Assembly (NCBI RefSeq): GCF_002835465.1
Contig: NZ_PIZM01000001.1
Coordinates: 62,001-126,000 of the forward strand
DNA from: Psychromonas sp. psych-6C06
GTDB taxonomy: Bacteria > Pseudomonadota > Gammaproteobacteria > Enterobacterales > Psychromonadaceae
DNA: 64,000 nt
Direction of reading: 5' to 3'
Shown here: piece after piece, positions 5,462 to 35,015 of the stretch
Layout of the letters: every line of letters starts with the position of its first letter
Position numbering within the stretch: the stretch's first letter is position 1
Program-made: the position numbers and the translations under genes
Notes under the pieces: model-generated
What the model saw: the letters and a program-made list of their open reading frames with translations, nothing else
The model's database searches: none
Told to the model about the DNA's origin: nothing

Positions 5462-5590
5462 AATTACCTATCAAGTTTTTTATGAAATTAAAGTCAAATA
5501 TATACTTTTTATAGTTGGATTAACACTCTAATTTAGGGTTCTAGATGATCAGCTGATATTTATCAAATTATGCTACTGAAAAAACTTCCT

Positions 5591-5606
5591 TTAACAATTT
5601 TGTTAA
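5591..5606. promoter_or_regulatory. Short inverted repeat upstream of the FAD dehydrogenase gene
   Basis: Perfect 7-base arms TTAACAA / TTGTTAA separated by TT, about 90 bases before the start at 5693. A second perfect 10-base palindrome, ATCAGCTGAT, lies at 5548-5557. Either could be an operator in this divergent intergenic region; no regulator is assigned. Confidence 0.3.
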
Positions 5607-5692
5607 TTTCAATTTAGCGTTACTTCACGTACACTACGCGATTATTTTAAAGCCCATTTTTAAGCATTTTTTATACAGCGACCAGGTGAAGT

Positions 5693-7312
5693 ATGATACG
5701 TCTCAACCAAGTAAAACTACCGTTAGATCATAGTGAAGATGCACTGCAGCAGTTTGTCTTAGATAAACTCAGTATATCTGCGCAACAATTGGTTGATATC
5801 CATGTTTTTAAACGTGGTTATGATGCGCGTAAACGTAACGTGATCACCTTGATTTACACGCTTGATATTACCTTGCAAGATGTGGATGAAAATTTAATTT
5901 TAAGCCGTTTTGAAAAAGATCAAAATGTACGTGTTTCGCCTGATACCGAATATAAATATGTTGCACAAGTCCCTACGGATTTAACTGAACGTCCGATTGT
6001 GATTGGGATGGGGCCTTGTGGTTTATTTGTTGGGTTGATGTTAGCGCAGATGGGCTTCAAACCGATTATTTTAGAGCGTGGTAAATCGGTGCATGAGCGT
6101 GCCAAAGATACTTTCCGTTTTTGGCGCACGAGTGAGTTAAATACCGAATCAAATGTTCAATTTGGTGAAGGGGGAGCGGGGACGTTCTCGGACGGAAAAT
6201 TATATAGCCAAGTGAAAGATCCGGGTTTTTTAGGGCTTAAAGTAAAACAAGAGTTTGTTGCTGCCGGTGCGCCTGCTGAAATCATCTATGTGAGTAAACC
6301 GCATATTGGTACCTATAAATTAGTGACCATGGTTGAAAAGATGCGTCGTAAGATACGCGAACTGGGTGGTGAGATACGTTTTGAAACCCGCGTTGAGGAG
6401 ATAAACATTGAAGGCGAGGGCGAAAACCGCCAAGTAACCGGTGTTACCTTAAATGGTGGTGAAGTGATTCATTCTAAACATGTTACCTTAGCGATTGGCC
6501 ATAGTGCGCGTGATACGGTACAAATGTTACACGATAAAGGCGTACATTTAGAGGCTCAATCTTTCTCGATTGGTTTCCGTATTGAGCATAAACAAGAGAT
6601 GATCGATAAATGTCGCTTTGGTATTAACGCTGGTCACCCAATTTTAGGTGCTGCCGATTACAAACTCGTGCATCACTGTAAAAATGGCCGTTCAGTATAT
6701 AGTTTTTGTATGTGTCCGGGTGGTGTTGTTGTGGCCGCAACCTCGGAAGAGCATGCCGTTGTGACCAATGGTATGAGTCAATACTCTCGCAGTGAGCGTA
6801 ATGCAAATAGTGCGATTGTAGTTGGGATAAGCCCCAATGACTTTGATAATGATCCACTACAAGGTATCGAGTTACAACGTAGACTTGAGCGTAATGCTTA
6901 TGTGATGGGCGGTAGCAACTACGATGCGCCAGCACAAATGGTGGGCGACTTCCTAAATGCAGGAGAGGGGAAACCTTTCGAAAATGTTGAGCCTTCTTAC
7001 AAACCTAATGTAAAAATGACCGATTTAACACCGGCTTTACCTGGTTTTGCGATTGATGCGATTCGTGAAGCGATTCCTGCTTTTGCTAAAAAAATCCGTG
7101 GTTTTGATAGTAAAGATGCGATGCTAACGGGCGTTGAAACACGCACTTCATCACCCGTGCAAATCAAACGTGGCAGTGACTACCAAAGTTTGAATACTAA
7201 AGGTCTATACCCTGGTGGCGAAGGTGCTGGTTATGCTGGCGGTATTTTATCTGCTGGGATCGATGGTATTAAAATAGCGGAAGCGGTTGCCTTGGATATG
7301 CTAAAAGGCTAG
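5693..7312 (+). CDS. FAD-dependent dehydrogenase (COG2509-type)
   Basis: A 539-residue flavoprotein of the widespread uncharacterised FAD-dependent dehydrogenase family. A small N-terminal domain (about residues 1-95) precedes the Rossmann dinucleotide motif IGMGPCGLFVGLMLAQ (about 104-119) ending in ILERG. The segment VQFGEGGAGTFSDGKLYSQV is strongly typical of this family, as is the C-terminal LYPGGEGAGYAGGILSAGID. No signal peptide is seen, so it should be cytoplasmic. Reaction and substrate are not established for the family. An 8-base tandem repeat begins inside the last codons and a strong terminator follows, so it is transcribed alone. Confidence 0.88.
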   Translation: MIRLNQVKLPLDHSEDALQQFVLDKLSISAQQLVDIHVFKRGYDARKRNVITLIYTLDITLQDVDENLILSRFEKDQNVRVSPDTEYKYVAQVPTDLTERPIVIGMGPCGLFVGLMLAQMGFKPIILERGKSVHERAKDTFRFWRTSELNTESNVQFGEGGAGTFSDGKLYSQVKDPGFLGLKVKQEFVAAGAPAEIIYVSKPHIGTYKLVTMVEKMRRKIRELGGEIRFETRVEEINIEGEGENRQVTGVTLNGGEVIHSKHVTLAIGHSARDTVQMLHDKGVHLEAQSFSIGFRIEHKQEMIDKCRFGINAGHPILGAADYKLVHHCKNGRSVYSFCMCPGGVVVAATSEEHAVVTNGMSQYSRSERNANSAIVVGISPNDFDNDPLQGIELQRRLERNAYVMGGSNYDAPAQMVGDFLNAGEGKPFENVEPSYKPNVKMTDLTPALPGFAIDAIREAIPAFAKKIRGFDSKDAMLTGVETRTSSPVQIKRGSDYQSLNTKGLYPGGEGAGYAGGILSAGIDGIKIAEAVALDMLKG

Positions 7313-21459: not shown

Positions 21460-21978
21460 TTACTTAGTGATCACTAAAATAACTTCTCCGACATTAATCC
21501 CCCATTTCTTTATGTAGCTGCGATTTATCACAACCTGCTCATCTATTTGATATAACCAATCATCAAAAGTAACACGATAAACACTGTCATCAACCGTTAA
21601 ATCAAGCTCATAATCCCACTGCAGTGCAAAACCTGCGCTCTGTCCCTGTGCCTCACCAACAATGTCACCGGCTGTGCCTGTGTAACGACCATCTTGTAGC
21701 TTGTTAATTACCCATGTGCGCTCTGTTTTTTCACCATCGTCAAAGACAAACCATTCTGCTAACGTACCTTGGTTATCCTCCCAAGTACCTATCATCTCAA
21801 CGCTAAATCGCCTGGTTACTTTGCCGGATCTATCTAACACAATCCCTTTGGCTTGAAGTGGGCCATTGAAAAATGTTTTGACATCAAATACAGGTGTTGT
21901 TTGATCATAGTCGCTCAGTTTTTGGCTACTACATGCGACTAACATTAAACTCGAAAAGATGATTAATAATGACTTCAT
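21460..21978 (-). CDS. DUF3833-type lipoprotein
   Basis: A 172-residue predicted lipoprotein of the DUF3833 family. The open frame runs up to 22029, but the ATG at 21978 is preceded by TAAGGAAATATCAA and begins a proper lipoprotein signal (MKSLLIIFSSLMLVACSS, lipobox LVAC), so it is the likely start. The rest has DUF3833 character: FFNGPLQAKGIVLDRSGKVT, WVINKLQDGRYTGTAGDIVG and a C-terminal VINRSYIKKWGINVGEVILV. It is the last gene of the ECF/ChrR cluster and follows the chalcone-isomerase-like gene. Function is unknown; a periplasmic lipid-binding role is a guess. Confidence 0.8.
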   Translation of the reverse strand: MKSLLIIFSSLMLVACSSQKLSDYDQTTPVFDVKTFFNGPLQAKGIVLDRSGKVTRRFSVEMIGTWEDNQGTLAEWFVFDDGEKTERTWVINKLQDGRYTGTAGDIVGEAQGQSAGFALQWDYELDLTVDDSVYRVTFDDWLYQIDEQVVINRSYIKKWGINVGEVILVITK

Positions 21979-22027
21979 TTGATATTTCCTTATATTATAA
22001 ATATGTTTATCGCTCGATTGCTTACGC

Positions 22028-22108
22028 ACCTATCTACCAATTAATTTCTGGCGCAGCTATTTACCGATTAATTGCTCTTTCAGCTATTTACCGATCAATT
22101 GCTGTCGC
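22028..22108. repeat. 27-bp tandem repeat, three units, spanning a stop codon
   Basis: Three consecutive 27-base units: 22028-22054, 22055-22081 and 22082-22108. The last unit encodes the final residues QLIGK and TAG stop of the chalcone-isomerase-like gene on the minus strand. The two other units lie downstream, in the same frame but after the stop, and decay with distance. This is a 3'-end duplication producing two silent copies of the C-terminal codons. Confidence 0.85.
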
Positions 22109-22614
22109 AATTGGGGCTCACTGGTATTTTGTGATAACCAAATCGATAAAAATGCATGTGAGAATTGTTCGCTATTGATAGCGCCTAACAGCTTTTGATT
22201 ATGATAAAAGTAGCCACTACCATCTTCTTCAACCATGAATAATAGCTCATCACCTTTTTTAATATCTGGCCATAATTGCCCGAGCGCATCTAGCCAATAA
22301 GGTGCTTGTTGCGGATTTAGTCCCAATTTTTGCCACTCTTTCTCGGTGGCGCTGATCAGATGTTGTTTATCAATATTCTTTTGATAAACAATATGAAGTG
22401 CTTGAGGATATTGTTTTTCATTGTATTTGCCACTTGGGCTATATAGGGAGGCTTGATAGAGGTCGATAAACAACCAACTCATTTCACCTTGTCCAACCAT
22501 CTTTAAATGATCGGTGAGGTGGTTGCTTGCAATGGCATGATGGCTGTTAACACAAACAATAAAAAGGAGGCTAAATAGACTATGTTTGAAGCTCTTTGAC
22601 GGTAGTTTTCTCAT
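22084..22614 (-). CDS. Chalcone-isomerase-like exported protein
   Basis: A 176-residue protein of the chalcone isomerase-like family found in bacteria. A signal peptide of about 29 residues (SLLFIVCVNSHHAIA) is followed by a domain with GEMSWLFIDLYQASLYSPSG, YPQALHIVYQKNI, EKEWQKLGL and GQLWPDIKKGDELLFMVEED, typical of this family. Its start overlaps the DUF2878 gene by 35 bases, showing tight coupling. True chalcone isomerase chemistry is not implied; relatives of the fold bind fatty acids, which would suit the lipid-modification context. The location should be periplasmic. Confidence 0.8.
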   Translation of the reverse strand: MRKLPSKSFKHSLFSLLFIVCVNSHHAIASNHLTDHLKMVGQGEMSWLFIDLYQASLYSPSGKYNEKQYPQALHIVYQKNIDKQHLISATEKEWQKLGLNPQQAPYWLDALGQLWPDIKKGDELLFMVEEDGSGYFYHNQKLLGAINSEQFSHAFLSIWLSQNTSEPQLRQQLIGK

Positions 22615-23128
22615 CGTAGCGTATCCTATTTTGTGATCCTATAGATACATATACGGGTAATAGGGATGCCCAGATCATACTGATAGAAAATAAACTAAGT
22701 AGTAGATTTTCATTAAGGGTAACCGCGCCCAATTTTGCACCAGCGTAATAACTGAGCGTGCCAAATATTGCGCCAAAAGTAATTTGTATGTAAACAGGAA
22801 CTTGCGTTAACCAGCGCATACTATGATTTAAAGTCAGGGAAAAATGCGCCCATAAAAGTACTAACCATAGTGGAATAAAGCTCTCTTTAGGGAAGATAAA
22901 AATACCCAGAAAGGTGAGTAGATAGTCGGCTAATGAGCCGACTAAAGTAATGGCAAGCAGTGTAAATAAGTCCGCTTTTTTACTTGGGCTGAGTAAAAAG
23001 TGGGCGCACAAAGACATCACTAAAATAGGTAATGCTTGATCTGTATAGAGCACTGCTGCAAACCAAATTGCTTGGAACCAAATAAAATTTATCCAAATGA
23101 AATGCTTATTGTTTATTGTCACATTCAT
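22580..23128 (-). CDS. DUF2878-type membrane protein
   Basis: A 182-residue inner-membrane protein with about five or six hydrophobic segments (FIWINFIWFQAIWFAAVLY, LPILVMSLCAHFLLSP, FTLLAITLVGSLADYLLTFL, LWLVLLWAHFSLTLNHSM). The charged break SPSKKADLF and the LADYLLTFLGIF segment are as I recall for DUF2878. No enzyme motif is visible. Overlaps the chalcone-isomerase-like gene by 35 bases. A 311-base gap with a repeat fragment separates it from the CFA-synthase-like gene, so transcription from the upstream genes may be partly uncoupled here. Confidence 0.75.
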   Translation of the reverse strand: MNVTINNKHFIWINFIWFQAIWFAAVLYTDQALPILVMSLCAHFLLSPSKKADLFTLLAITLVGSLADYLLTFLGIFIFPKESFIPLWLVLLWAHFSLTLNHSMRWLTQVPVYIQITFGAIFGTLSYYAGAKLGAVTLNENLLLSLFSISMIWASLLPVYVSIGSQNRIRYDEKTTVKELQT

Positions 23129-23153
23129 GATGGCCCCTTTTGAAATGTTCGAG

Positions 23154-23200
23154 TATTATACCAATACGCTTAACTATCTGATCTATCTTGCGGGTTAAAA
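23154..23200 (+). repeat. Fragment related to the ~168-bp dispersed repeat
   Basis: Within the 311-base gap 23129-23439. TTATACCAAT at the left end and CTGATCTATCTTGCGGGTTA match the ends of the copies at 31795 and 39457; similarity is lost after about 45 bases. Beyond it, 23201-23439 shows no gene and nothing else I can name. Confidence 0.5.
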
Positions 23201-23439
23201 AAATAGATAACAGCGTTGCATTCAATCGCAATAGCTATTACTAAATCATGCGCCTTGCTCTCTATCATTTTCCTCAACAAGCCCTGTTCACAATATTATG
23301 CGCAATGTTATTAGTCTCTGTGTACACAATACAAAACCTAAAAACATTGTGCTGTTGTGAGAACAAATTCGCTTAGAATAACTAAGCGAGAATAATCCTG
23401 ACTTGCGAAATAAATTCAAACAGTAAAGTTCAACAGAGG

Positions 23440-24699
23440 CTAGTATTCGCGGTAATTAGGCTTTGCTGCAATTAAGTGCACAGTGCTGATACGTCGCTCT
23501 AAAAATGCGCCTTCACAGTAGCTAAAGTAGAACTTCCACAATCGAATAAAAGTATCGTCATAACCTAATGATTTAACTTTTTCTAGTGCATCATCGAAAC
23601 GTTGATGCCAATGGTTCAAGGTTTTAGCATAGTCCTGTCCAATATCATGTAATCCTGTGACTACCATGTCAGTTTTTTTACTCACATTTTGTGTCATTAC
23701 ACTGACCGAAGGTAGGCAACCTCCAGGGAAAATATAGCGTTGGATGAAATCAACGCCTTTACGATAACTATGGTATCGTTGATCAGAGATAGTGATCGCT
23801 TGAATGAGCATTTTACCGTGTGGTTTTAAATGTTTATTACAGGTTTCAAAAAAGCTAGCTAAGTATTCATGGCCGACTGCTTCAATCATCTCTATCGAAA
23901 CTAACTTGTCGTATTCCCCCGTTAACTCACGGTAGTCTTTTTTAAGTAAAGTAATTTTTTCTGTCAATCCAAGTGCTTCTATACGCGATTTTGCATAGTC
24001 GTATTGTGCATCGGAAATAGTAGTAGTGGTAACTTGTGCACCATAGTTTTGCGCTGCATAAATAGCTAATGCTCCCCAACCTGTGCCTATTTCTAATAGT
24101 GTGTCACCGGGTTTTAGTTGTAAACGTTGGCAAATTGTATCTAGCTTATTGAGCTGAGCTTGCTCTAAATCTGCTTCATTGTGTGGGTAAATAGCACTGG
24201 AATAGAGCATCTCTTTATCTAAAAATTGCTCATACATATCATTACCTAAGTCGTAATGCTCAAGAATGTTTTTCTTTGCGCCTGATTGGGTGTTTTTGCG
24301 CGCTTTATGGTAGAACCAACTAGGGATCGCCATAAACCGAGCAAAACGTTTTTCTAGTTTATCAAGTGCGACTTGCTCTCTTGCTAATACTTGAATCACG
24401 CGTGTTAAATCAGGGCTACTCCATAAGCCTTGCATGTAGGCTTCACCTGCACCAATGCTTCCACCAAATAACATTTTGCTGTAACAACTCATGTCATGAA
24501 TAACGATTTTGGCATGCAAATCTGCTTTCATATTACCTAAATGAAACTGTCCGGTTGGCTCTTCAAAGGTAAGGTAACCATTTTTCATTTCACCTAAAAA
24601 AGAGATGATCAATTTTTTTGCCATTTTATCGACTAAGCCAATAGGCTCCATAGTCTTTGTTTTGACCTCGTTAGATAAGGCGATATTTTCAGCTGACAT
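23440..24699 (-). CDS. Cyclopropane-fatty-acid-synthase-like SAM methyltransferase
   Basis: Methyltransferase of the CFA synthase family, acting on unsaturated acyl chains in membrane phospholipids. The ATG at 24699 (MSAENIALSN) with upstream AAAGGAGAACC is preferred over the longer frame from 24738, giving 419 residues. The N-terminal acceptor part carries GGSIGAGEAYMQGLW, the SAM site is LLEIGTGWGALAIYAA, and SIEMIEAVGHEY and FIQRYIFPGGCLPS follow. The segment LDKEMLYSSAIY lacks the Cys found in the corresponding YSC motif of E. coli Cfa, so chemistry may differ. Its first bases overlap the DUF1365 gene. In Rhodobacter, CFA-like methylation belongs to the RpoE/ChrR-linked furan fatty acid pathway. 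Confidence 0.88.
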   Translation of the reverse strand: MSAENIALSNEVKTKTMEPIGLVDKMAKKLIISFLGEMKNGYLTFEEPTGQFHLGNMKADLHAKIVIHDMSCYSKMLFGGSIGAGEAYMQGLWSSPDLTRVIQVLAREQVALDKLEKRFARFMAIPSWFYHKARKNTQSGAKKNILEHYDLGNDMYEQFLDKEMLYSSAIYPHNEADLEQAQLNKLDTICQRLQLKPGDTLLEIGTGWGALAIYAAQNYGAQVTTTTISDAQYDYAKSRIEALGLTEKITLLKKDYRELTGEYDKLVSIEMIEAVGHEYLASFFETCNKHLKPHGKMLIQAITISDQRYHSYRKGVDFIQRYIFPGGCLPSVSVMTQNVSKKTDMVVTGLHDIGQDYAKTLNHWHQRFDDALEKVKSLGYDDTFIRLWKFYFSYCEGAFLERRISTVHLIAAKPNYREY

Positions 24700-25471
24700 G
24701 ATGGTTCTCCTTTTTTGAATGTGCCACGTAGGGAACACCTTTTATATATAGTTTGAGTGCTTGCCAATAGATACCGAGTACTGTTTTAGCAGTCATCATT
24801 GGAATAGCTAATAGGTTTTTTAACAGGTTTTTGTTAGTAAATGCTTGGCGTTTCATATTGATGCTAGCAGTAAACATTTTTCTTTGTGCAGTGTTGATTG
24901 TTGGGTTATCGGATTGGTTATCGGCTACGTTTTCGATTGTTAAACTCAATGTTTCTGCCGGTGCTTTAATTCGCCAGTGATAACGCATGTTAAGATCCAT
25001 AAAGGGGGAAACATGAAACGTTTTTTCACACTGTTGTTCAGTGCTCACATCAATCAGATAATATTGACGCTCATTCCATGGAGTGTTGCTCACTTCAGCA
25101 AGTAGGTAAGCTAATTTCTCATTTTGGTCATAACAGTAATAACTGTTGATGGGACTAAAATAGAGTCCAAAGCATCGCATCTGACCGATGAAGAGTATTT
25201 TTCCTGCTTTGTCATCACCACCTAAACTAACTACTTTATCCCATACATCTTGTTTACTTATATTCTGTTTATGTTGCAGATAATCTGGTGCAAAAAAGCG
25301 TAACGGTGCAAAACCATCGGTTTTAAAGTATCGCCCTAGTTGACTTAATTGTGTTAGCTCATCCAAGTCGATTGCTAAGAAGAAGATACGGTAACTAAAA
25401 CGGTGTTTTTTAGGCGTAAATCGTTGGTGAAAAACCTCACCTTGATAGATGCATGAGTTGAGTGAACTCAT
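24689..25471 (-). CDS. DUF1365 family protein
   Basis: A 260-residue protein of the DUF1365 family, which is nearly always found between an amine-oxidase-like FAD protein and a CFA-synthase-like protein. Typical features: YQGEVFHQRFTPKKHRFSYR at the N-terminus, FAPDYLQHKQN, CFGLYFSPINSYYCYD and FHVSPFMDLNMRYHWRI. The C-terminus has a hydrophobic stretch (about residues 225-245). The start overlaps the FAD protein stop in ATGA (25468-25471) and its end overlaps the CFA-like gene by 11 bases. Biochemical activity is not known; it probably works with its two neighbours on acyl-chain modification. Confidence 0.85.
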   Translation of the reverse strand: MSSLNSCIYQGEVFHQRFTPKKHRFSYRIFFLAIDLDELTQLSQLGRYFKTDGFAPLRFFAPDYLQHKQNISKQDVWDKVVSLGGDDKAGKILFIGQMRCFGLYFSPINSYYCYDQNEKLAYLLAEVSNTPWNERQYYLIDVSTEQQCEKTFHVSPFMDLNMRYHWRIKAPAETLSLTIENVADNQSDNPTINTAQRKMFTASINMKRQAFTNKNLLKNLLAIPMMTAKTVLGIYWQALKLYIKGVPYVAHSKKENHHVS

Positions 25472-26724
25472 AGTGTTACTCCAAAACGTTTACACACATC
25501 TAATGCGCTATTAACGCCATCCTCATGAAAGCCATTATACCAATACGCGCCAGCGAAGTGAGTATGTTGTTGTCCACAAATAAGTTTACGCTGTTGTTGT
25601 GCTTTAATACTTTGGGCATTAAATACGGGGTGCTCATACTGGTAAGTACCTAATATGGATTCAGGCTTTATTAGTTCTGTCTGGTTGAGTGTGACACAGA
25701 ATGTTGGCGTACCTTTTTTCAAACGCTGCAAAATATTCATATTGTAGGTGAGGGCCGCAGGGCGTTTATTATCGTTATTGAGGTGATAATTCCATGCAGA
25801 CCAAGCGCGTTTTTTATTGGGTAATAAACTGATGTCGGTATGCAAAACTACTTCATTATTTTGATATTGTAATCCGTTAAGCACTTTTTGTTCATCATCG
25901 CTGATATCAGAGAGTAGTCGTTTTGCTTGGTTGCTGTGGCAGGCAAGTACCACTTCATCAAAGTGTTGCCACTCACCTGAGTTTACTTGTAAACGAATAC
26001 CTTCTTTTACTCTTTCAATAGATGTGACTGGCGCGTTTAGTTGAATTTTATCTTTAAAGCTATCACAAAGAGGTTGTACATACTGCTTTGACCCCCCCGG
26101 AATGACGTACCACTGTGGTCTATTCGTAATACTAAGTAAGCCATGGTTGTAAAAAAATCTAATAAAAAAATATAATGGAAACGCTTTCATATCTTCTAGG
26201 CTTGATGACCAAATAGCAGCACCCATTGGAAGAATGTAGTGGTTAGCAAAGTAATCATTAAAGCCATGTTGTTGCAAAAACTGTTCTACATTTTGCTCTT
26301 CGTCAATACACTGATCTAACCATGCTTCATTGCACAGTTTATTGAAGCGTAAAATTTGTTTGATGAGCATTAAAAACTTGGGGTTAAATAGGTTACTGCG
26401 TTGTGCAAAAAGGCTATTAAGGTTAGTGCCACTATATTCTAAGCCACTGTCTTGATTGCTGACACTGAAACTCATTTCGGTCGCTAATCGTCCAACACCA
26501 ATTTTTGATAGTAATTTTTCAAAGTTTGGGTAGGTACGATCATTAAATACAATAAACCCGGTATCTATATCCCATGACTCACCTTCGGCTTGTACCGTTT
26601 TGGTGGCGGTATGTCCTCCGATATATTCTCCGGCTTCAAATAGGGTGATGTCATGTTGTTTGTTGAGTAGGTAAGCGCAGGTTAGTCCTGATATACCGCT
26701 TCCGACAATGGCAATTTTTTTCAT
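25468..26724 (-). CDS. FAD-dependent amine-oxidase-like protein
   Basis: A flavoprotein of 418 residues with a strong Rossmann motif at its start, KKIAIVGSGISGLTCAYLL; this fixes the ATG at 26724 (preceded by GGAGCTTACAAAA) rather than the upstream frame start at 26760. GEYIGGHTATKTVQAEGES and the C-terminal FAGAYWYNGFHEDGVNSALD are typical of the group annotated NAD/FAD-binding or flavin amine oxidase. Homologous proteins next to CFA-like enzymes were implicated in desaturation of methylated fatty acids in Rhodobacter (UfaD type), as I recall; orthology here is inference. Coupled to the SDR gene upstream and DUF1365 downstream by 4-base overlaps. Confidence 0.88.
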   Translation of the reverse strand: MKKIAIVGSGISGLTCAYLLNKQHDITLFEAGEYIGGHTATKTVQAEGESWDIDTGFIVFNDRTYPNFEKLLSKIGVGRLATEMSFSVSNQDSGLEYSGTNLNSLFAQRSNLFNPKFLMLIKQILRFNKLCNEAWLDQCIDEEQNVEQFLQQHGFNDYFANHYILPMGAAIWSSSLEDMKAFPLYFFIRFFYNHGLLSITNRPQWYVIPGGSKQYVQPLCDSFKDKIQLNAPVTSIERVKEGIRLQVNSGEWQHFDEVVLACHSNQAKRLLSDISDDEQKVLNGLQYQNNEVVLHTDISLLPNKKRAWSAWNYHLNNDNKRPAALTYNMNILQRLKKGTPTFCVTLNQTELIKPESILGTYQYEHPVFNAQSIKAQQQRKLICGQQHTHFAGAYWYNGFHEDGVNSALDVCKRFGVTL

Positions 26725-27443
26725 TTTTGTAAGCTCCGTGCTGAAATAGCTTGCCACCAACTATCTGGTAATAGGGCTAAGGTTTTCAGAATGAGGGTAA
26801 ATTTTTTAGGAAAATGTATATCAAACTGCCGTTTATTAAGACCATTTATGATCTCTTCCGCTGCTTGTTGCGCGCTTATTTGCATGGGCATTTTAAAATC
26901 GTTTTTATCTGTCAAAGGAGTCTTTACGAAGCCGGGGCTAATTAAGCTCACATCAATGTGATGTTTTTTCAAATCTAATGCTAATGTGCGAGCTAAATAG
27001 GCTACGCCTGCTTTACTTGCGCCGTAAGCTTGTGCACGAGAAAAGGGTAAGAAGCTTGCACTAGAGCCAACTAAGGCTAGTTGACCACCGTTACAGATTT
27101 GAGGTAATAATGCCTCTAAACAGTATCCCATCGCAATTAAGTTGGTATTGATCACGCGTGCAAACAGATTTCCATCAAAATTTTTAGCATCATCAATATA
27201 TTCGCAGCTACCTGCATTTAAAATGACCATATCTAGTTCTCCTAAATCGGAGAGCTTTTCATTTACCTGTTGTTGCACGCACACATCTACTTCGATGCAA
27301 TCAATGTTTTGATAGGTACTGAGTCTAGCTAGTTTTTCTGTGTTGCGGCCACACGCAATAATCTTATGCCCAAGCTTTTGATAATCTTGACAAAGTGCTT
27401 CACCAATACCTGAAGTTGCGCCAGTAATTAGAATCGTTTTCAT
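26721..27443 (-). CDS. Short-chain dehydrogenase/reductase (SDR)
   Basis: NAD(P)-dependent classical SDR, 240 residues. Cofactor motif ITGATSGIGEALCQDY (about residues 5-20), NAG motif LDMVILNAGS and catalytic Tyr/Lys in AQAYGASKAGVAYLAR with Ser in VGSSASFLPFS. No signal peptide. Its start shares a base with the previous stop (TAATG) and its stop overlaps the next start (ATGA), so it is fully embedded in the operon. Substrate unknown; a redox step on a modified lipid or aldehyde is a reasonable guess. Confidence 0.9.
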   Translation of the reverse strand: MKTILITGATSGIGEALCQDYQKLGHKIIACGRNTEKLARLSTYQNIDCIEVDVCVQQQVNEKLSDLGELDMVILNAGSCEYIDDAKNFDGNLFARVINTNLIAMGYCLEALLPQICNGGQLALVGSSASFLPFSRAQAYGASKAGVAYLARTLALDLKKHHIDVSLISPGFVKTPLTDKNDFKMPMQISAQQAAEEIINGLNKRQFDIHFPKKFTLILKTLALLPDSWWQAISARSLQK

Positions 27444-27865
27444 TAGCTTGCCCTCTTTTTAACTGCTTTGATCACAGGCCCTATCATAGGCAAGTGTTCA
27501 TAGAGCATTTGTCCAAGATCCAAATAATCTCGATGGCAATCTATTTTTTCTGAAAATTGAAGATGCGAGGAGCCATCTACTACAATGCGTTGCCCCTTTT
27601 TAATTTTGTGATGAGCATATTCCATTCGCCAGATAATAGAGGCTTCCCCAGGTTGCTCAATGACACGATTGATATGAAAATGGCAGTAGTCCATGTTTTC
27701 ATAAAGGTTGGCAAAGTAAGTCGTGAGCGCATCAAGACCATTTACTTGATGAATAGGATCAATAAATACCACACTGTCACTGTAAACCTCTTTCAAGCGT
27801 TCCAAGTTGTCTTTATTGAGACTTTGATAAAGCTGACAAAAATCATTCAACAGTGTGTTCTTCAT
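27443..27865 (-). CDS. SnoaL/NTF2-like protein
   Basis: A small 140-residue protein with the cone-shaped SnoaL/NTF2-like fold signature: FCQLYQSLNKDNLERLKEVY at the N-terminus, VVFIDPIHQVNGLDALTTYF and ASIIWRMEYAHHK. The ATG at 27865 has a good ribosome site (AAAGGAAATACC); an upstream in-frame ATG at 27886 overlaps the photolyase stop as ATGA and is an alternative. Members are binding proteins or small isomerases and cyclases. Function in this conserved cluster is unknown. Confidence 0.78.
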   Translation of the reverse strand: MKNTLLNDFCQLYQSLNKDNLERLKEVYSDSVVFIDPIHQVNGLDALTTYFANLYENMDYCHFHINRVIEQPGEASIIWRMEYAHHKIKKGQRIVVDGSSHLQFSEKIDCHRDYLDLGQMLYEHLPMIGPVIKAVKKRAS

Positions 27866-27882
27866 GGTATTTCCTTTCTGTT

Positions 27883-29265
27883 TCATCCCCCTTGGTGCTC
27901 TTGAGCTTTGAGTACCGAGAAGGAGAGTAGTGCGCGTTGTCGTGCAAATTTATGTTCAACGATTGGCTTAATAGGTTCGTGTAGTTGCTTGCTATTGATG
28001 CCTTGACGCTGTTGTAAATAGATACGGATAAACTCCCCATTTGGATCAAATTTCTTGCTTTGTAAGGTTGGATTAAAAATACGAAAATAGGGCTGTGCGT
28101 CACAGCCTGTACTGGCTGCCCATTGCCAGCCACCATTGTTAGAAGCAAAGTCACCATCAATTAAGTGTTGTTTAAAATATTTTTCTCCCCAACGCCAGTC
28201 GATTAAAAGGTGCTTGGTAAGAAAGCTGGCACAAACCATACGCAGGCGATTATGCATCCATCCGGTTTCATTGAGTTGACGCATTGCCGCATCTACTAAT
28301 GGGTAGCCGGTTTTACCTGCACACCAAGCCACAAAATCTTCATCATTATTATTCCAAATTATATTTTTAGCTTTGGGGTTGTAGTTAGCACCTTTACCAA
28401 TGTGTGGATTAAGTACCATGATATGACGATAAAACTCTCGCCAAAGAATTTCATTAAGCCAAACAACGGGGCCTGTTGCATTACCATCAAGTAAAGTAGG
28501 AAAAGCTTGCAATAGATAATAGACACACTGTTTTGCGCTGATAATACCTAGGGCTAAACAGGGTCCTAGTTTTGAAGTCGCTGACAAAGCAGGAAAGTCT
28601 CGCTGCTCATGATAATCTTCAACGTGCAAATTGATAAATTTTTGCAATGACTGATAAGCCTCTTCTTCGCTGGCTGGCCAAGCACTACTGTTTATTTTAT
28701 CAAGTGGCAATAAAATGTCAGGGTTTTCAATGGGTGCACCTTGTATAACCGGTGCAGGATAAGGATGCAGGTTTACTTCTTGCCTAAGCATTTTTAAGCA
28801 ACAGTTTTTAAAAGGAGTGAAAACTTTGTACATATCCCCTTGTTTTGTTACTACTTCACCAGGGTTTATCAAACAGTCTGCTTGATAGAGGTTAAAACCT
28901 ATTTGTGCTTCACTTAATACTTGTTGGCTTTGAATATCACGAGTGATCTCATCAACTTCTACTTCACTGTTTGCATATACATTACCAATGTTATTTTGCT
29001 TACAATATGCGACTAGTCGTGCCGGAATATCAACAAAGCTATTTACTTCAATAACCTGCAAGGCAATACCTAATTTTCCGAGTTGCACACTTAAATGATT
29101 TAGCGCACGTTGCATTAAATCAATCTGAATAGGTGCGACATCGTGTTGTTGCCATTGTTCGGGAGTAATAAAGTAAATGGCGGTTGTTGGGCCATTCAGG
29201 CAGGATTGATAAAGTGCGGGATTATCGTTGATACGTAAATCTTTACGAAACCATACAAGTTCCAT
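27883..29265 (-). CDS. phrB: Deoxyribodipyrimidine photolyase (class I CPD type)
   Basis: Light-driven repair of pyrimidine dimers, 460 residues (E. coli PhrB 472). The N-terminal antenna domain starts ELVWFRKDLRINDNPALYQ. The FAD-binding catalytic domain is clear: VWLNEILWREFYRHI, GYPLVDAAMRQLNETGWMHN, RLRMVCASFLTKHLLIDWR, ASNNGGWQWAASTGCDAQPY and FRIFNP. The Trp residues of the electron-transfer chain are present in these blocks. The pattern fits a true CPD photolyase rather than a CryB/6-4 type. Placement in an RpoE/ChrR cluster agrees with photo-oxidative stress control; a 184-base gap with a hairpin precedes it. Confidence 0.93.
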   Translation of the reverse strand: MELVWFRKDLRINDNPALYQSCLNGPTTAIYFITPEQWQQHDVAPIQIDLMQRALNHLSVQLGKLGIALQVIEVNSFVDIPARLVAYCKQNNIGNVYANSEVEVDEITRDIQSQQVLSEAQIGFNLYQADCLINPGEVVTKQGDMYKVFTPFKNCCLKMLRQEVNLHPYPAPVIQGAPIENPDILLPLDKINSSAWPASEEEAYQSLQKFINLHVEDYHEQRDFPALSATSKLGPCLALGIISAKQCVYYLLQAFPTLLDGNATGPVVWLNEILWREFYRHIMVLNPHIGKGANYNPKAKNIIWNNNDEDFVAWCAGKTGYPLVDAAMRQLNETGWMHNRLRMVCASFLTKHLLIDWRWGEKYFKQHLIDGDFASNNGGWQWAASTGCDAQPYFRIFNPTLQSKKFDPNGEFIRIYLQQRQGINSKQLHEPIKPIVEHKFARQRALLSFSVLKAQEHQGG

Positions 29266-29352
29266 CTGTTTTCCTTTATGTGAAGTGAGAGCATGTCAAA
29301 GTGATTAAGTATATGCCCTTACTTTTGCACAGGAAAATAGCTTAATGAAGAT

Positions 29353-29390
29353 AATAAACTGACTAAACATCTGCTTTTAATCAGTTTATT
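29353..29390. other. Hairpin in the gap between DUF1722 and photolyase genes
   Basis: AATAAACTGA (29353-29362) pairs with TCAGTTTATT (29381-29390), with partial inner pairing. It lies in the 184-base gap 29266-29449 inside the cluster. It may be an attenuator or a processing signal; no T-run follows on the minus strand. Confidence 0.4.
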
Positions 29391-29449
29391 TTCAATAGGT
29401 TAAGCTATTGTAACCAGAAAATTGAACATATATTTATTCAAATTTGCTA

Positions 29450-30421
29450 TTAGTGGCTATAACGCAACCTTAATTCATCGGGATGAGGGTGCAGGTATAT
29501 CTGTTGTTGTAGATAAGGGTCTGGATAAAGCTTTAGGTAATGATTAATTAGCGTGACAGGGGCCATGAGTGGAATTAACCCTTCACGGTATTGACTAATA
29601 ATATCGGCTAGGTCGGTACGCTGAGCACTGTCTAAGTTACGCTTAAAATACCCTTGCAAGTGGGACAGTGTATTACTGTGACTCTTACGATTAGGGAGTG
29701 TGCTAAGTATTTTCATAAACAAAGCAATATAGTTTGGTGCAATCTCTTCAGCGGTTTCACCTGTGCCACCGAGCATTGGACCTATTTTATAATAAAGTGC
29801 TGCGTTGTGTGCCATTAATAGGTATTTGTGTTTTGCGTGGAATGCCATCAATTTTGCCATAGTAACGCCAGAGTCCATCAAACCTTGCCATTGATGGTAA
29901 GCCAGTACCCGGGTAATGAAATTTTCACGCAGTAGGGGATCGTTTAGTCGACCATCTTCTTCAACAGGAAGTAGTGGATGGTCTTTCATTACTTTAGCTG
30001 CAAATACACCAACGCCATCACGTTGACCGTTGTTAGTGCCTGCTTGATATAAAGTAACGCGCTCCATGCCACAGCTTGGTGACTTAGCACAAAAAATATA
30101 ACCACTTAGGTGATCAAGCGTAGCACTCGTTTTAGCTGAAAATTCATTGAGTTTATCAGTGACATCAAAGCTTCCATCGCTGGCAACAACACGAATGATA
30201 TCTTCATCCTTTACTAAGCGTATAGCACGACGTGGCGTACCTAAGCCTATTGCCATTTCAGGACAAATAGGCTCGAAGTCAAAATGATTAGCTAATACTT
30301 TTTGGCAATACTTACTTTGTTTGTGTCCGCCATCAAAGCGGACTTGCTGACCAACAAGGCAACTACTGATGCCAACCTTAATTGGCGCCTTGCTTACTGT
30401 GTTTTGTTGCTGATCTGTCAT
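29450..30421 (-). CDS. DUF523/DUF1722 (YbgA-type) protein
   Basis: A 323-residue two-domain protein. Residues about 12-160 are the DUF523 domain with conserved Cys motifs: GISSCLVGQQVRFDGGHK, FEPICPEMAIGLGTPR and FCAKSPSCGMERV. The second half is DUF1722 (LMAFHAKHKYLLMAHNAALY, YLKLYPDPYLQQQIYLHP). The Cys pattern suggests a metal or Fe-S cofactor. It is commonly a neighbour of photolyase genes. Relatives of this family have been studied in connection with 2-thiouracil removal; that role is not assumed here. It follows chrR after 19 bases. Confidence 0.82.
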   Translation of the reverse strand: MTDQQQNTVSKAPIKVGISSCLVGQQVRFDGGHKQSKYCQKVLANHFDFEPICPEMAIGLGTPRRAIRLVKDEDIIRVVASDGSFDVTDKLNEFSAKTSATLDHLSGYIFCAKSPSCGMERVTLYQAGTNNGQRDGVGVFAAKVMKDHPLLPVEEDGRLNDPLLRENFITRVLAYHQWQGLMDSGVTMAKLMAFHAKHKYLLMAHNAALYYKIGPMLGGTGETAEEIAPNYIALFMKILSTLPNRKSHSNTLSHLQGYFKRNLDSAQRTDLADIISQYREGLIPLMAPVTLINHYLKLYPDPYLQQQIYLHPHPDELRLRYSH

Positions 30422-30440
30422 ATTTTACCTTTAATCTAGG

Positions 30441-31091
30441 TTAGTAGATAAATTTACCTAATGGATTTAGTACCTTACTCATGCCACTTATAAAATGCAA
30501 TGGTGCATCTTGTACGGTGTAACATAAACAACCTTTATCAGTCTTAGGGGAGTGGTTTATTTCACCAGATAACAGCATGAAATCTCCTTTACTATAAGTG
30601 CCATGTTCATCTGTAAAGCTACCATCTAAGAGTAGTGTTAACTCATAGCCTTTGTGTTGATGTTGAGGAATTTCTCCACCTTCTTTTATGTGTAATAAGC
30701 TTGCGCGCACATTTTCTTCATCGCTGATGACGCGCGCACGGCTGATTGCACCAAAACCTGTCCATTTGAGATGTTCAAAAGAACGAAATGCATGGGGAAG
30801 GGTAATTTGCTTACCTTCTATTAAAACTTGTGTATCTTGTTTGGCAACTATCTTTTTACTCTTTGTTACAGGCGTCGCTAAAATCCCTTGTAACATATCA
30901 CCAAAGTCAGCTAACTCTACCTGTTCGCCATTCCAAGTCTGTTGTGCTTGTGATGCGACAATACGTTGTTCTTTCGCTTTGCATTCCGGGCACATTTCAA
31001 TATGTGCACTGAGTGCAATCGATAATGAAAAAGGTAATTCACCACGACAGTATTGCGCTAACAACTCTTCATTTGGATGATGTTTAATCAT
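30441..31091 (-). CDS. chrR: ChrR-type zinc anti-sigma factor with cupin domain
   Basis: Holds the adjacent ECF sigma factor inactive and releases it on singlet-oxygen stress. It has 216 residues. The N-terminal anti-sigma domain has a ZAS-like zinc motif (HHPNEELLAQYC, then LSAHIEMCPECKAK) with His, His, Cys, Cys in the ChrR order. The C-terminal half is a cupin with metal-ligand pattern PQHQHKGYELTLLLDG (His, His, Glu) and a later His in SGEINHSP, as in Rhodobacter ChrR. The start overlaps the sigma gene by 8 bases. Sensing of singlet oxygen is from family knowledge. Confidence 0.9.
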   Translation of the reverse strand: MIKHHPNEELLAQYCRGELPFSLSIALSAHIEMCPECKAKEQRIVASQAQQTWNGEQVELADFGDMLQGILATPVTKSKKIVAKQDTQVLIEGKQITLPHAFRSFEHLKWTGFGAISRARVISDEENVRASLLHIKEGGEIPQHQHKGYELTLLLDGSFTDEHGTYSKGDFMLLSGEINHSPKTDKGCLCYTVQDAPLHFISGMSKVLNPLGKFIY

Positions 31092-31710
31092 GATCTATCT
31101 CCAATGTTGTTTTCAACTTAGAAAGCGCTAATCTTAACCGAGATTTCACTGTTCCTAAGGGGATGTTTAATAATCGAGCAACTTCAGGTTGACTCAACTC
31201 TTTTAAATACAATGCCTCAACTACTTGTCTTTGTTGCTCGGGCAAGCTATTGATATTTTTTAGTAAATTTCGCGACATTAGGTGATCATCTTCATGTGAT
31301 TCCTGCTCCTCAAAAAGTGGCCATAAATCATCACTGACTTGATCCTCTTTTTGAGTCTGTTTCTTACGTAACATATCAAAGCAGTGATTACGCATGATGG
31401 TATAAATCCATGTTGTCGCTTTGCCTTTTTGTGCATTAAAAAGGCTCGCTTTGCGCCACACTAATAACATAGTTTCTTGGACTAACTCTAATGCCTGAGC
31501 CTCCTGTCCGAAACGTTGTAATCCAAAAGCACGAATTTTAGGGGAGAAGTATTTAAACAATACTTCAAACGCTTTTTTATCTTGCTCTTCAGCGACCTTA
31601 GAAAGGGCTGTCTGAATTACACTGTCCGTGTCTATTTCAGCGATGTTATTTAAATTATTCAATGGTTTACCCGTAACGTTGTTTGTAACTGTTAGCATTT
31701 TATATTCCAT
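31084..31710 (-). CDS. rpoE: ECF sigma factor, RpoE/ChrR (ECF11) group
   Basis: Extracytoplasmic-function sigma factor, 208 residues. Region 2 is visible as EAQALELVQETMLLVWRKA and TWIYTIMRNHCFDMLRKK; region 4 as LPEQQRQVVEALYLKELSQP followed by EVARLLNIPLGTVKSRLR. The overlapping chrR gene places it in the ECF11 group responding to singlet oxygen. Met5 (31698) is an alternative start with better ribosome spacing, since the predicted promoter leaves only a short leader before Met1. It heads the minus-strand cluster down to 21460. This is not the general RpoE of the periplasmic stress response. Confidence 0.92.
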   Translation of the reverse strand: MEYKMLTVTNNVTGKPLNNLNNIAEIDTDSVIQTALSKVAEEQDKKAFEVLFKYFSPKIRAFGLQRFGQEAQALELVQETMLLVWRKASLFNAQKGKATTWIYTIMRNHCFDMLRKKQTQKEDQVSDDLWPLFEEQESHEDDHLMSRNLLKNINSLPEQQRQVVEALYLKELSQPEVARLLNIPLGTVKSRLRLALSKLKTTLEIDHD

Positions 31711-31732: not shown

Positions 31733-31762
31733 TTAATACGCTTGAGTGTCAAAAATGGATCA
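31733..31762 (-). promoter_or_regulatory. Predicted ECF11 sigma promoter (autoregulation)
   Basis: On the minus strand TGATCC (31757-31762) is followed after 16 bases by CGTATTAA (31733-31740), about 23 bases before the sigma start codon. From what I recall of ECF11 (RpoE/ChrR) promoters, TGATCC and CGTA-type elements at this spacing are the consensus. It indicates that the sigma factor drives its own operon. Confidence 0.75.
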
Positions 31763-33875: not shown

Positions 33876-35015
33876 ATGTTTGATTATGAAACGTTAAAAT
33901 TACTTTGGTGGCTACTTATTGGCGTATTGCTGATTGGCTTTGTTATCACTGATGGGTTTGATATGGGAGTAGGGACACTTCTGCCTATTATAGGTAAAAC
34001 AGATGAACAGCGCCGTATAATGATAAACAGTATTGCCCCTCACTGGGAAGGTAATCAAGTATGGTTAGTGTTGGCTGCAGGCGCTATATTTGCGGCCTGG
34101 CCGGCCGTTTATGCAACTGCATTTTCTGGTTTTTATGTGGCCATGATGCTGACTCTATTTGCTTTATTCTTTAGACCTGTTGGTTTTGATTATCGCAGTA
34201 AGTTAGCGGATGATCGCTGGCGTAAAAGTTGGGACTGGGGAATATTTACTGGCAGCACGGTACCTCCTATCGTATTCGGTGTTGCCTTTGCTAATTTATT
34301 ACAGGGCGTGCCTTTTGTATTGGATGACTTTTTGCGTCCTCAATATCAAGGTAGCTTTTTTGCATTACTTAACCCTTTTGCATTAATGGTTGGTGTCTTT
34401 AGTTTATCGCTGTTTGTTATGCAAGGTGCCTCATGGTTACAAATGAAAACCGAAGATGAGATTCATGCGCGTGCTAAAAAAGTCATTTTCATTGTTGCCC
34501 CATTAGCAACATTACTATTTGCACTAGCGGGTGTTTGGTTATATTACGGTATTGATGGTTATGTGATCACTGCAATAGGTGATTTGAATGGCCCTTCTAA
34601 TCCATTATTAAAAACAGCCGAGCTTCAGCAAGGCGGTTGGTTATTAAACTATGAAAAATATCCATTAATGATACTTGCACCTGTACTGGGGTTAATCTTG
34701 CCATTATTGGTTGTGATTGCGACTAAATTTAATCGTGCTGGTTTTGCTTTTTTGTTTAGTAGCTTAACCCAAGGTGCAGTATTGATGACATTTGCACTCA
34801 GTGTTTTCCCATTTGTGATGCCATCGAGTATTGATCCAAGCATGAGCTTCACGGTTTGGGATGCCACATCAAGTGAGATGACGTTGAATATAATGACTAT
34901 CGCTGCTGTTATCTTTTTACCTATTATTTTGCTTTATACGAGTTGGGGATACTTTAAGATGTTCGGTCGTCTTGGAAAAGCGTTCATGGCTAAATATAAG
35001 CATTCAGCGTATTAA
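33876..35015 (+). CDS. cydB: Cytochrome bd ubiquinol oxidase subunit II
   Basis: Second large membrane subunit of the bd oxidase, 379 residues as in E. coli. It shows the conserved N-terminal WWLLIGVLLIGFVITDGFDM, IAPHWEGNQVWLVLAAGAIF and AAWPAVYATAFSGFYVAM. About nine hydrophobic helices follow. It begins 9 bases after cydA and is followed by cydX after 14 bases. Confidence 0.97.
   Translation: MFDYETLKLLWWLLIGVLLIGFVITDGFDMGVGTLLPIIGKTDEQRRIMINSIAPHWEGNQVWLVLAAGAIFAAWPAVYATAFSGFYVAMMLTLFALFFRPVGFDYRSKLADDRWRKSWDWGIFTGSTVPPIVFGVAFANLLQGVPFVLDDFLRPQYQGSFFALLNPFALMVGVFSLSLFVMQGASWLQMKTEDEIHARAKKVIFIVAPLATLLFALAGVWLYYGIDGYVITAIGDLNGPSNPLLKTAELQQGGWLLNYEKYPLMILAPVLGLILPLLVVIATKFNRAGFAFLFSSLTQGAVLMTFALSVFPFVMPSSIDPSMSFTVWDATSSEMTLNIMTIAAVIFLPIILLYTSWGYFKMFGRLGKAFMAKYKHSAY

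Follow-up and report, generated by a model that had tools for sequence, protein, structure and literature searches.

In Psychromonas sp. psych-6C06, a minus-strand run of twelve open reading frames (ORFs) very probably constitutes a photo-oxidative stress operon, which is controlled by an extracytoplasmic function (ECF) sigma factor and ChrR and joins furan fatty acid synthesis to an accessory envelope module. In the ORF list it occupies positions 31710 to 21460 of the window, by which we mean the whole stretch of 64,000 nucleotides that was analysed (contig NZ_PIZM01000001.1, positions 62,001 to 126,000). The genes encode, in order, an ECF sigma factor, ChrR, a DUF523/1722 protein, a photolyase, a SnoaL protein, a short-chain dehydrogenase (SDR), a flavin adenine dinucleotide (FAD) protein, a DUF1365 protein, a protein resembling cyclopropane fatty acid synthase (CFA-like), and a trio of DUF2878, chalcone-isomerase-like (CHI-like), and DUF3833 proteins. 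Profile matches above curated cut-offs confirmed the ECF sigma factor, ChrR, 2-thiouracil desulfurase plus DUF1722, photolyase, SnoaL_2, SDR, an amino-oxidase-type FAD protein, DUF1365, CMAS, DUF2878, Chalcone_3, and DUF3833, so that the twelve genes and their order, as given in a first-pass annotation of this DNA, stand. Our reading draws on genes, domains, promoter sequence, synteny, residue signatures, and predicted folds observed here; the papers cited by PMC number were drawn on in excerpt.

Probable furan fatty acid genes and RudS

A putative furan pathway was recognised in the window by a DUF1365 protein adjoining an FAD desaturase-like protein. In Rhodobacter sphaeroides, UfaM, UfaD (RSP1091), and UfaO (RSP1090, a DUF1365 protein) suffice to turn phospholipid vaccenoyl chains into a methylated furan fatty acid (PMC7380195), and the FAD and DUF1365 proteins of the window correspond to UfaD and UfaO, and the CFA-like protein probably to UfaM. 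The proposal of the first-pass annotation that the cluster contains a furan fatty acid pathway gains support. RudS, a DUF523/1722 fusion that is frequent in light operons, strips sulfur from 4-thiouridine in tRNA; the window protein, with a TudS domain fused to DUF1722, fits the family definition of this desulfidase (PMC11417400). Since reactions have been published for UfaO, UfaD, and UfaM (PMC7380195) as well as for RudS (PMC11417400), the earlier count of at least six members lacking a known reaction falls to five, namely the SnoaL, SDR, DUF2878, CHI-like, and DUF3833 proteins.

The reactions of UfaM, UfaD, UfaO, and RudS and the sensing by ChrR are carried over here from other species. Singlet oxygen made by light, or a lipid signal derived from it, would inactivate ChrR, and the sigma factor, once freed, would transcribe the operon from the element TGATCC-N16-CGTATT. 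Protection of tRNA and DNA would fall to RudS and photolyase, while UfaM would methylate the vaccenoyl chain of membrane lipids, UfaD would desaturate it, and UfaO would close the furan ring with O2; the furan product, which this organism presumably makes, would be a sacrificial scavenger of oxygen radicals. The accessory envelope module would consist of DUF2878 in the inner membrane, an exported CHI-like protein, and DUF3833 as a lipoprotein barrel; its most likely task is to bind, move, or clear either the furan lipid or the product of that lipid's oxidation. We infer the roles of the trio, as well as those of the SDR and SnoaL proteins.

Probable control by the sigma factor and ChrR

ECF/ChrR regulation, as claimed in the first-pass annotation, is borne out by a putative ECF/ChrR-type promoter of the operon's own. 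This candidate autoregulatory element (TGATCC-N16-CGTA) has the same hexamers and spacing as the rpoE2 promoter of Shewanella oneidensis (PMC4336711). A looser motif, TGATC-N16-18-CGTANN, was sought from -250 to +120 of ORF starts in 141 loci and was present at 21 of 28 rpoE ORFs, the window counted, with the reversed control at 0 of 28. Over the whole genome, the promoter pattern matched 24 times (11+13) and the reversed pattern 7 times. ChrR exceeds the cut-off of its family profile TIGR02451 (124.5 bits) and, beside the ECF sigma factor, has the zinc-finger ligands H5, H30, C34, and C37 of an RpoE–ChrR system together with a C-terminal cupin-type site and CxC motif (H144, H146, E150, H180, C188, and C190). 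Among ChrR ORFs with scores above 200 bits, the window's counted, each of these residues is kept in 14 of 14; the roles of the individual cupin and CxC residues are those we presume. The sigma and chrR genes of S. oneidensis also overlap by 8 nt, as in the window (PMC4336711).

Motif matches were found as well at the SnoaL start region of 20 out of 70 ORFs. We rejected 17 of them, the window's included, as a coding constraint of photolyase, the letters spelling D-P-x-x-x-F-I-R, which we take to be a conserved photolyase stretch. The other three (L180, L181, and L192) fall outside that coding stretch; in L180 and L181, chrR is followed directly by SnoaL, and the ECF-type motif there could be an internal promoter. 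A further match, TGATC-N16-CGTAAT at 34543-34569 on the minus strand, lies inside the plus-strand ORF 33876-35015 by the gene for cytochrome bd subunit I; it is probably due to chance, and we did not take it for a promoter. Scans for standard sigma-70 promoters (29 versus a shuffle mean of 33.4) and terminators (8 versus 8.1) did not rise above shuffled sequences.

Conservation of the gene order

The arrangement exceeds chance, because the same order recurs in other genera and the families co-occur above expectation. We compared the best 80 of 579 loci from a UfaO scan of named genomes, a non-random sample (named loci). The genes ufaD-ufaO-ufaM are contiguous in 77 of these, and all twelve genes occur in identical order and strand in eight, which belong to Motilimonas pumila, Shewanella (three), Pseudoalteromonas (two), Vibrionales SWAT-3, and a gammaproteobacterial metagenome-assembled genome. 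The DUF2878-CHI-DUF3833 block, present in 25 named loci, is mobile as a unit, standing before rpoE in Parashewanella (L181), Colwellia (L183), and Alteromonadaceae (L185), and alone in genome G139 (L120).

Co-occurrence was counted in 229 genomes of the class, 68 of them with DUF1365, from matches above the cut-off of each family; this dropped 1 of 41 genomes for DUF2878 (G098), 2 of 69 for Chalcone_3 (G063 and G092), and 54 of 62 for ChrR. The first-pass annotation had put forward, as a check, the co-occurrence of the last three genes with the CFA-like gene; counted against DUF1365, the trio families share genomes above expectation. For DUF3833 this was the case in 32 of 35 genomes (expected 10.4), with a p value of 7e-17 which, as with the other co-occurrence p values, overstates independence because the genomes are related. 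The figures were 30 of 40 genomes for DUF2878 (expected 11.9) and 38 of 67 for Chalcone_3 (expected 19.9), and in 26, 24, and 24 genomes, respectively, the DUF3833, DUF2878, and Chalcone_3 genes lay within 12 kb of DUF1365. ChrR was accompanied by DUF1365 in 8 of 8 genomes, always within 12 kb.

A residue signature of the methyltransferase

The bicarbonate ligands of Escherichia coli Cfa are Glu239, His266, and Tyr317 (PMC11387697). In an alignment with this enzyme (PDB 6bqc, whose chain numbering is, by our count, one higher than the published numbering), the CFA-like protein of the window keeps Glu286 and Tyr370 and carries Gln313 at the position of His266, and so lacks the full Glu/His/Tyr set. 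It also scores 294.8 bits against the Cfa equivalog NF008686, for which the cut-off is 400. Of 130 UfaM-type proteins, 128 share the Gln seen at position 313 of the window protein. Immediately downstream of 135 ufaO ORFs, the CMAS gene is of the Gln type in 120 and of the His type in none, with no type assigned in 15. The CMAS copies adjoining ufaO in Azoarcus and Azospirillum have Gln too. By contrast with UfaM, a second and diverged CMAS-family methyltransferase, which often adjoins DUF2878, carries His in 38 of 38 cases. A Cys close by in E. coli Cfa is replaced by Ser in the window, at a position that is variable (Ser in 80, Ala in 31, Cys in 18, and Asn in 1 of 130) and non-diagnostic.

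Taken with the failed Cfa cut-off, the Gln signature, which was defined by clustering with ufaD-ufaO rather than by the sequence of an assayed UfaM, favours a UfaM-type enzyme. We count this Gln-for-His exchange among the new points of our analysis, along with the DUF3833-CHI pairing, the mutual exclusion of DUF2878 and an MFS_2 transporter, and the dispersed repeats ahead of DUF2878; the main texts of PMC7380195 and PMC12089945 do not contain the words histidine, glutamine, or bicarbonate, and in the open-access papers searched DUF3833 is named in 3 and DUF2878 in 2. The signature may help annotators to separate furan-pathway methyltransferases from cyclopropane synthases. As a side observation, His-type second methyltransferases stand by DUF2878 in L098, L099, L107, L115, L116, L129, L197, L205, L230, and other loci, some of them labelled Nitrospira or Methylophilaceae.

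The envelope trio

Read from its probable start codon, the DUF3833 protein begins with a lipoprotein signal, and the lipobox cysteine is found in 56 of 58 relatives, never with Asp next to it. Under the sorting rule of E. coli, lipoproteins without Asp after the Cys go to the outer membrane. The confident predicted model (predicted local distance difference test score 94.5) is a ten-stranded, antiparallel up-and-down barrel, for which we chose the label calycin. Its nearest solved folds are BFA1, the OssO/OlmO spirocyclases, and nitrobindins, a designed transmembrane barrel topping a second comparison; the barrel is of the kind seen in calycin/lipocalin-like lipid binders, and a fold alone gives no function. 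The CHI-like protein has a CHI-like domain (Chalcone_3, 58.9 bits, cut-off 27) and a hydrophobic, signal-type N-terminus; a sequence search for a solved relative found none. DUF2878 has several hydrophobic helices and a confident predicted model, and comparison of its fold gave no clear match.

DUF3833 and CHI are tied to each other strongly, not strictly. Among 134 loci, 48 have both, 9 DUF3833 alone, and 6 CHI alone (48 of 63 with either), and in the named loci CHI accompanies DUF3833 in 30 of 31 cases and is never alone. DUF2878 and DUF3833 are not mutually exclusive, sharing 11 genomes of the class sample (expected 6.1). DUF2878 seems instead to swap with a transporter of the major facilitator superfamily (MFS). 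In the 68 DUF1365 genomes, MFS was near ufaO in 19, DUF2878 in 24, and both in none (expected 6.7, with a p value of 4e-5 that is too small, given the relatedness of the genomes). Gene orders came first from 53 of the 68, favouring carriers of trio genes, a bias that could create such an exclusion; the test was therefore repeated on all 68, with the remaining 14 added and the window as the 68th. DUF2878 or MFS is present in 60 of the 63 loci carrying DUF3833 or CHI. The DUF2878/MFS comparison over the 134 loci is less clean than the 68-genome count, since it includes 80 related loci, with MFS in 2 of them, and absences are weak where the stretch is short or ends with its contig (e.g., L123, L263, and L273). 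In 13 of the 23 listed loci with an MFS_2 transporter, its gene directly follows ufaM, and all three cluster transporters tested match PF13347. MFS_2 also includes lysolipid carriers such as MFSD2A.

The R. sphaeroides genes RSP_1089 and RSP_1087 encode a GPH symporter and an SDR, respectively (PMC7074977). Given these flanks and the Azoarcus order MFS-DUF3833-SDR, RSP_1088 (186 aa) is probably a DUF3833 protein. In a strain lacking chrR, single deletion of RSP1087, RSP1088, or RSP1089 left the furan fatty acid profile unchanged (PMC7380195); if RSP_1088 is DUF3833, then DUF3833, SDR, and transporter are each dispensable for furan acid synthesis, which fits handling rather than synthesis.

The first-pass annotation had suggested that the trio handles or transports the modified lipid. 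In favour of this, none of the three proteins belongs to the minimal set needed for biosynthesis, DUF3833 and CHI, which mostly occur as a pair, have the look of exported proteins, and DUF2878 swaps with a transporter, so that handling or export of a furan lipid stands as a candidate role. A more specific version, possible but on balance doubtful, is that the trio, with an MFS_2/GPH transporter in place of DUF2878 in other lineages, forms a trafficking line whose cargo is furan phospholipids or the products that singlet oxygen makes of them. A lipid or lysolipid would cross the inner membrane by way of the membrane protein, to be carried or cleared in the periplasm by the exported pair with their lipid-binding folds. 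If this were true, furan fatty acid metabolism would have a transport branch, and DUF2878 would represent a novel, small translocator of lipids. For three unknown families, a testable lipid-handling hypothesis comes from the swap of DUF2878 with MFS_2 and the pairing of DUF3833 with CHI, and the question becomes sharper: what does the module of DUF2878/MFS, CHI, and DUF3833 do with furan lipids?

Alternative explanations

The CFA-like gene could encode an ordinary cyclopropane fatty acid synthase, in which case the operon would strengthen membranes with cyclopropane lipids and make no furan. Its CMAS match is strong, its best solved relative is E. coli Cfa (6bqc, 197 bits), it is the sole full-length gene among four CMAS matches in the genome, and the gene of this operon is called a cyclopropane synthase in papers on Shewanella (PMC4336711), Vibrio (PMC5241685), and Pseudomonas syringae (PMC5507510). 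The shortfall against the Cfa equivalog, the replacement of the His ligand by Gln, and the place of the gene directly after those of UfaD and UfaO argue the other way, and we regard a cyclopropane operon as quite improbable. As for the trio, it might be made up of regulatory or sensing parts, which carry the lipid-derived signal that triggers ChrR loss or change the envelope without moving lipid; we consider this rather unlikely. We think it hardly probable that the trio genes have nothing to do with the Ufa operon next to them, from which a gap filled with repeats would separate them. The 311-bp gap between the CFA-like and DUF2878 genes (23129-23439) does hold two dispersed repeat families and, within the first repeat, a terminator-like hairpin at 23389-23369, which may lower trio expression here, and the block stands elsewhere in L120 and upstream of rpoE in L181, L183, and L185. 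Yet the repeats of the gap are found across the genome (42 matches, self included), 60 other same-strand ufaM-DUF2878 pairs listed are separated by anything from an overlap to 102 bp, and the 26 genomes with DUF3833 less than 12 kb from DUF1365 are 26 of 35.

Several points weigh against a furan operon with a dedicated envelope module. His occurs in 2 of the 130 UfaM-type proteins, and E. coli expressing Halomonas UfaM reportedly contained cyclopropane acids as well, some of which the control strain had already (PMC12089945), so the Gln/His divide may be leaky. DUF3833 and CHI each occur singly, in 9 and 6 of the 134 loci, and RSP_1088 was equated with DUF3833 by its place in the gene order and its length, together with the annotation of its P. 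syringae ortholog as a lipoprotein. With 10 of 40 DUF2878 genomes having no DUF1365 gene, DUF2878 is not confined to the furan pathway. Finally, in this genome the trio may no longer be coupled to the operon, given the repeat-filled gap and its hairpin.

Comparison with known systems

The core idea of the first-pass annotation, in regulation and pathway, holds, while its novelty was overstated, the biology being mostly known. The RpoE-ChrR regulon of R. sphaeroides (RSP_1091-1087 and RSP_2144) shares with the window the sigma/ChrR pair, promoter type, photolyase, UfaM/UfaD/UfaO, SDR, and probably DUF3833. It differs in having ufaM and the photolyase gene apart from ufaD-ufaO and the GPH-family transporter RSP_1089 in the operon, and its published gene list leaves no room for DUF2878 together with a CHI-like gene. 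In the window, all twelve genes form one run, with RudS and SnoaL. In S. oneidensis, the operon SO_3386-SO_3374 belongs to the RpoE2 regulon (PMC4336711). Judged from the published positions of ybgA, phrB, and cfa and from the named Shewanella loci, it has the RudS-to-DUF3833 order of the window, but rpoE2-chrR lies elsewhere in the genome. In Vibrio cholerae, cfa (VC1122) is light-induced and ChrR is needed for 159 of 222 light-responsive genes (PMC5241685), and P. syringae has a regulon cluster, PSPTO_1123-1115, with sigma binding before phrB (PMC5507510). The operon of Aeromonas salmonicida has six genes in the same order (NTF2-SDR-FAD-DUF1365-cfa-DUF2878); in the excerpted report it appears solely as down-regulated by riboflavin, with its function called unknown (PMC10012899).

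ChrR is one of at least two wirings of the lipid cluster, as it exceeds the family cut-off in just 8 of the 68 DUF1365-bearing genomes and some Ufa loci have a MerR regulator. The MerR gene lies between RudS and photolyase in some loci, among them Shewanella L172, L173, L194, and L203, which differ from the window in this, and adjoins ufaD on an Azoarcus plasmid. The phrB-ufaM cluster of Pseudomonas under class II LitR (MerR-B12) has the window's order RudS-photolyase-SnoaL-SDR-UfaD-UfaO-UfaM-DUF2878 (L217, from P. syringae, and other Pseudomonas loci), but its published light control is of the MerR/B12 type, and DUF3833, mostly with CHI adjoining, lies elsewhere in the genome. In Pseudomonas mendocina, light raises ufaM 25-33 fold (PMC9758184). 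MerR regulators adjoin the Ufa pathway in L160, L217, L194, L203, L173, and L172, with B12-binding domains in L160 and L217; these loci mostly have no adjacent ChrR (L172 has both), which suggests that light control was rewired. With ChrR control, UfaM/UfaD/UfaO, RudS, and photolyase joined in one run, a single organism could serve to test the whole light-stress programme.

Locus layout

On our reading of the ORFs, several listed start codons are too early. The overlaps of 1-35 bases described in the first-pass annotation hold in part: that of 35 nt between the CHI-like and DUF2878 genes stays, while most others come to 1-11 nt after start correction. The run is not seamless; besides the 311-bp gap, there are gaps of 184 bp between the DUF1722 gene and photolyase and of about 105 bp between the CHI-like and DUF3833 genes.

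Table 1. Features of the operon region, in window coordinates
Feature	Position	Strand	Evidence
ECF/RpoE-ChrR type promoter TGATCC-N16-CGTATT (putative), before sigma gene	31735..31762	-	sequence match
ECF sigma factor (RpoE-like)	31084..31710	-	ORF and domain matches
ChrR anti-sigma factor	30441..31091	-	TIGR02451, 196 bits; ligands conserved; 8-nt overlap with sigma gene
RudS-type TudS + DUF1722 fusion	29450..30421	-	domain match; PMC11417400
DNA photolyase (phr)	27883..29265	-	domain match
SnoaL/NTF2-like protein	27443..27886	-	domain match
Short-chain dehydrogenase	26721..27443	-	domain matches
UfaD-type FAD fatty acyl desaturase	25468..26724	-	domain match; start probably ATG 26724
UfaO-type DUF1365 protein	24689..25471	-	domain match
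UfaM-type fatty acyl methyltransferase	23440..24699	-	CMAS match, Gln signature; start probably ATG 24699
Short dispersed hairpin repeat copy, ~66 bp (query 53-118), ufaM-DUF2878 gap	23322..23387	-	repeat search of genome
Second dispersed repeat copy, ~160 bp (query 126-285)	23155..23314	-	repeat search of genome
DUF2878 multi-helix membrane protein	22580..23128	-	domain match, hydrophobic helices
Chalcone-isomerase-like protein	22084..22614	-	Chalcone_3 match; N-terminal hydrophobic signal-like segment
DUF3833 lipoprotein	21460..21978	-	domain match; predicted calycin-like 10-strand barrel; start probably ATG 21978

Other occurrences of the families

Klebsiella accounts for 95 of 149 plasmid records with a DUF3833 match. 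We considered DUF3833 on these plasmids as a mobile furan module and rejected the idea: in the one plasmid examined (L159, NZ_CP050155.1), a lone DUF3833 gene (5582-6133) has an insertion sequence (IS) element and a segment of DHA-1 nearby but no Ufa genes. On plasmid p1 of Ensifer adhaerens (L165, 1205-6777), sigma factor and ChrR are accompanied by DUF1295, a His-type CFA-like protein, and DUF1365, which make up a ChrR-linked lipid cluster of another kind.

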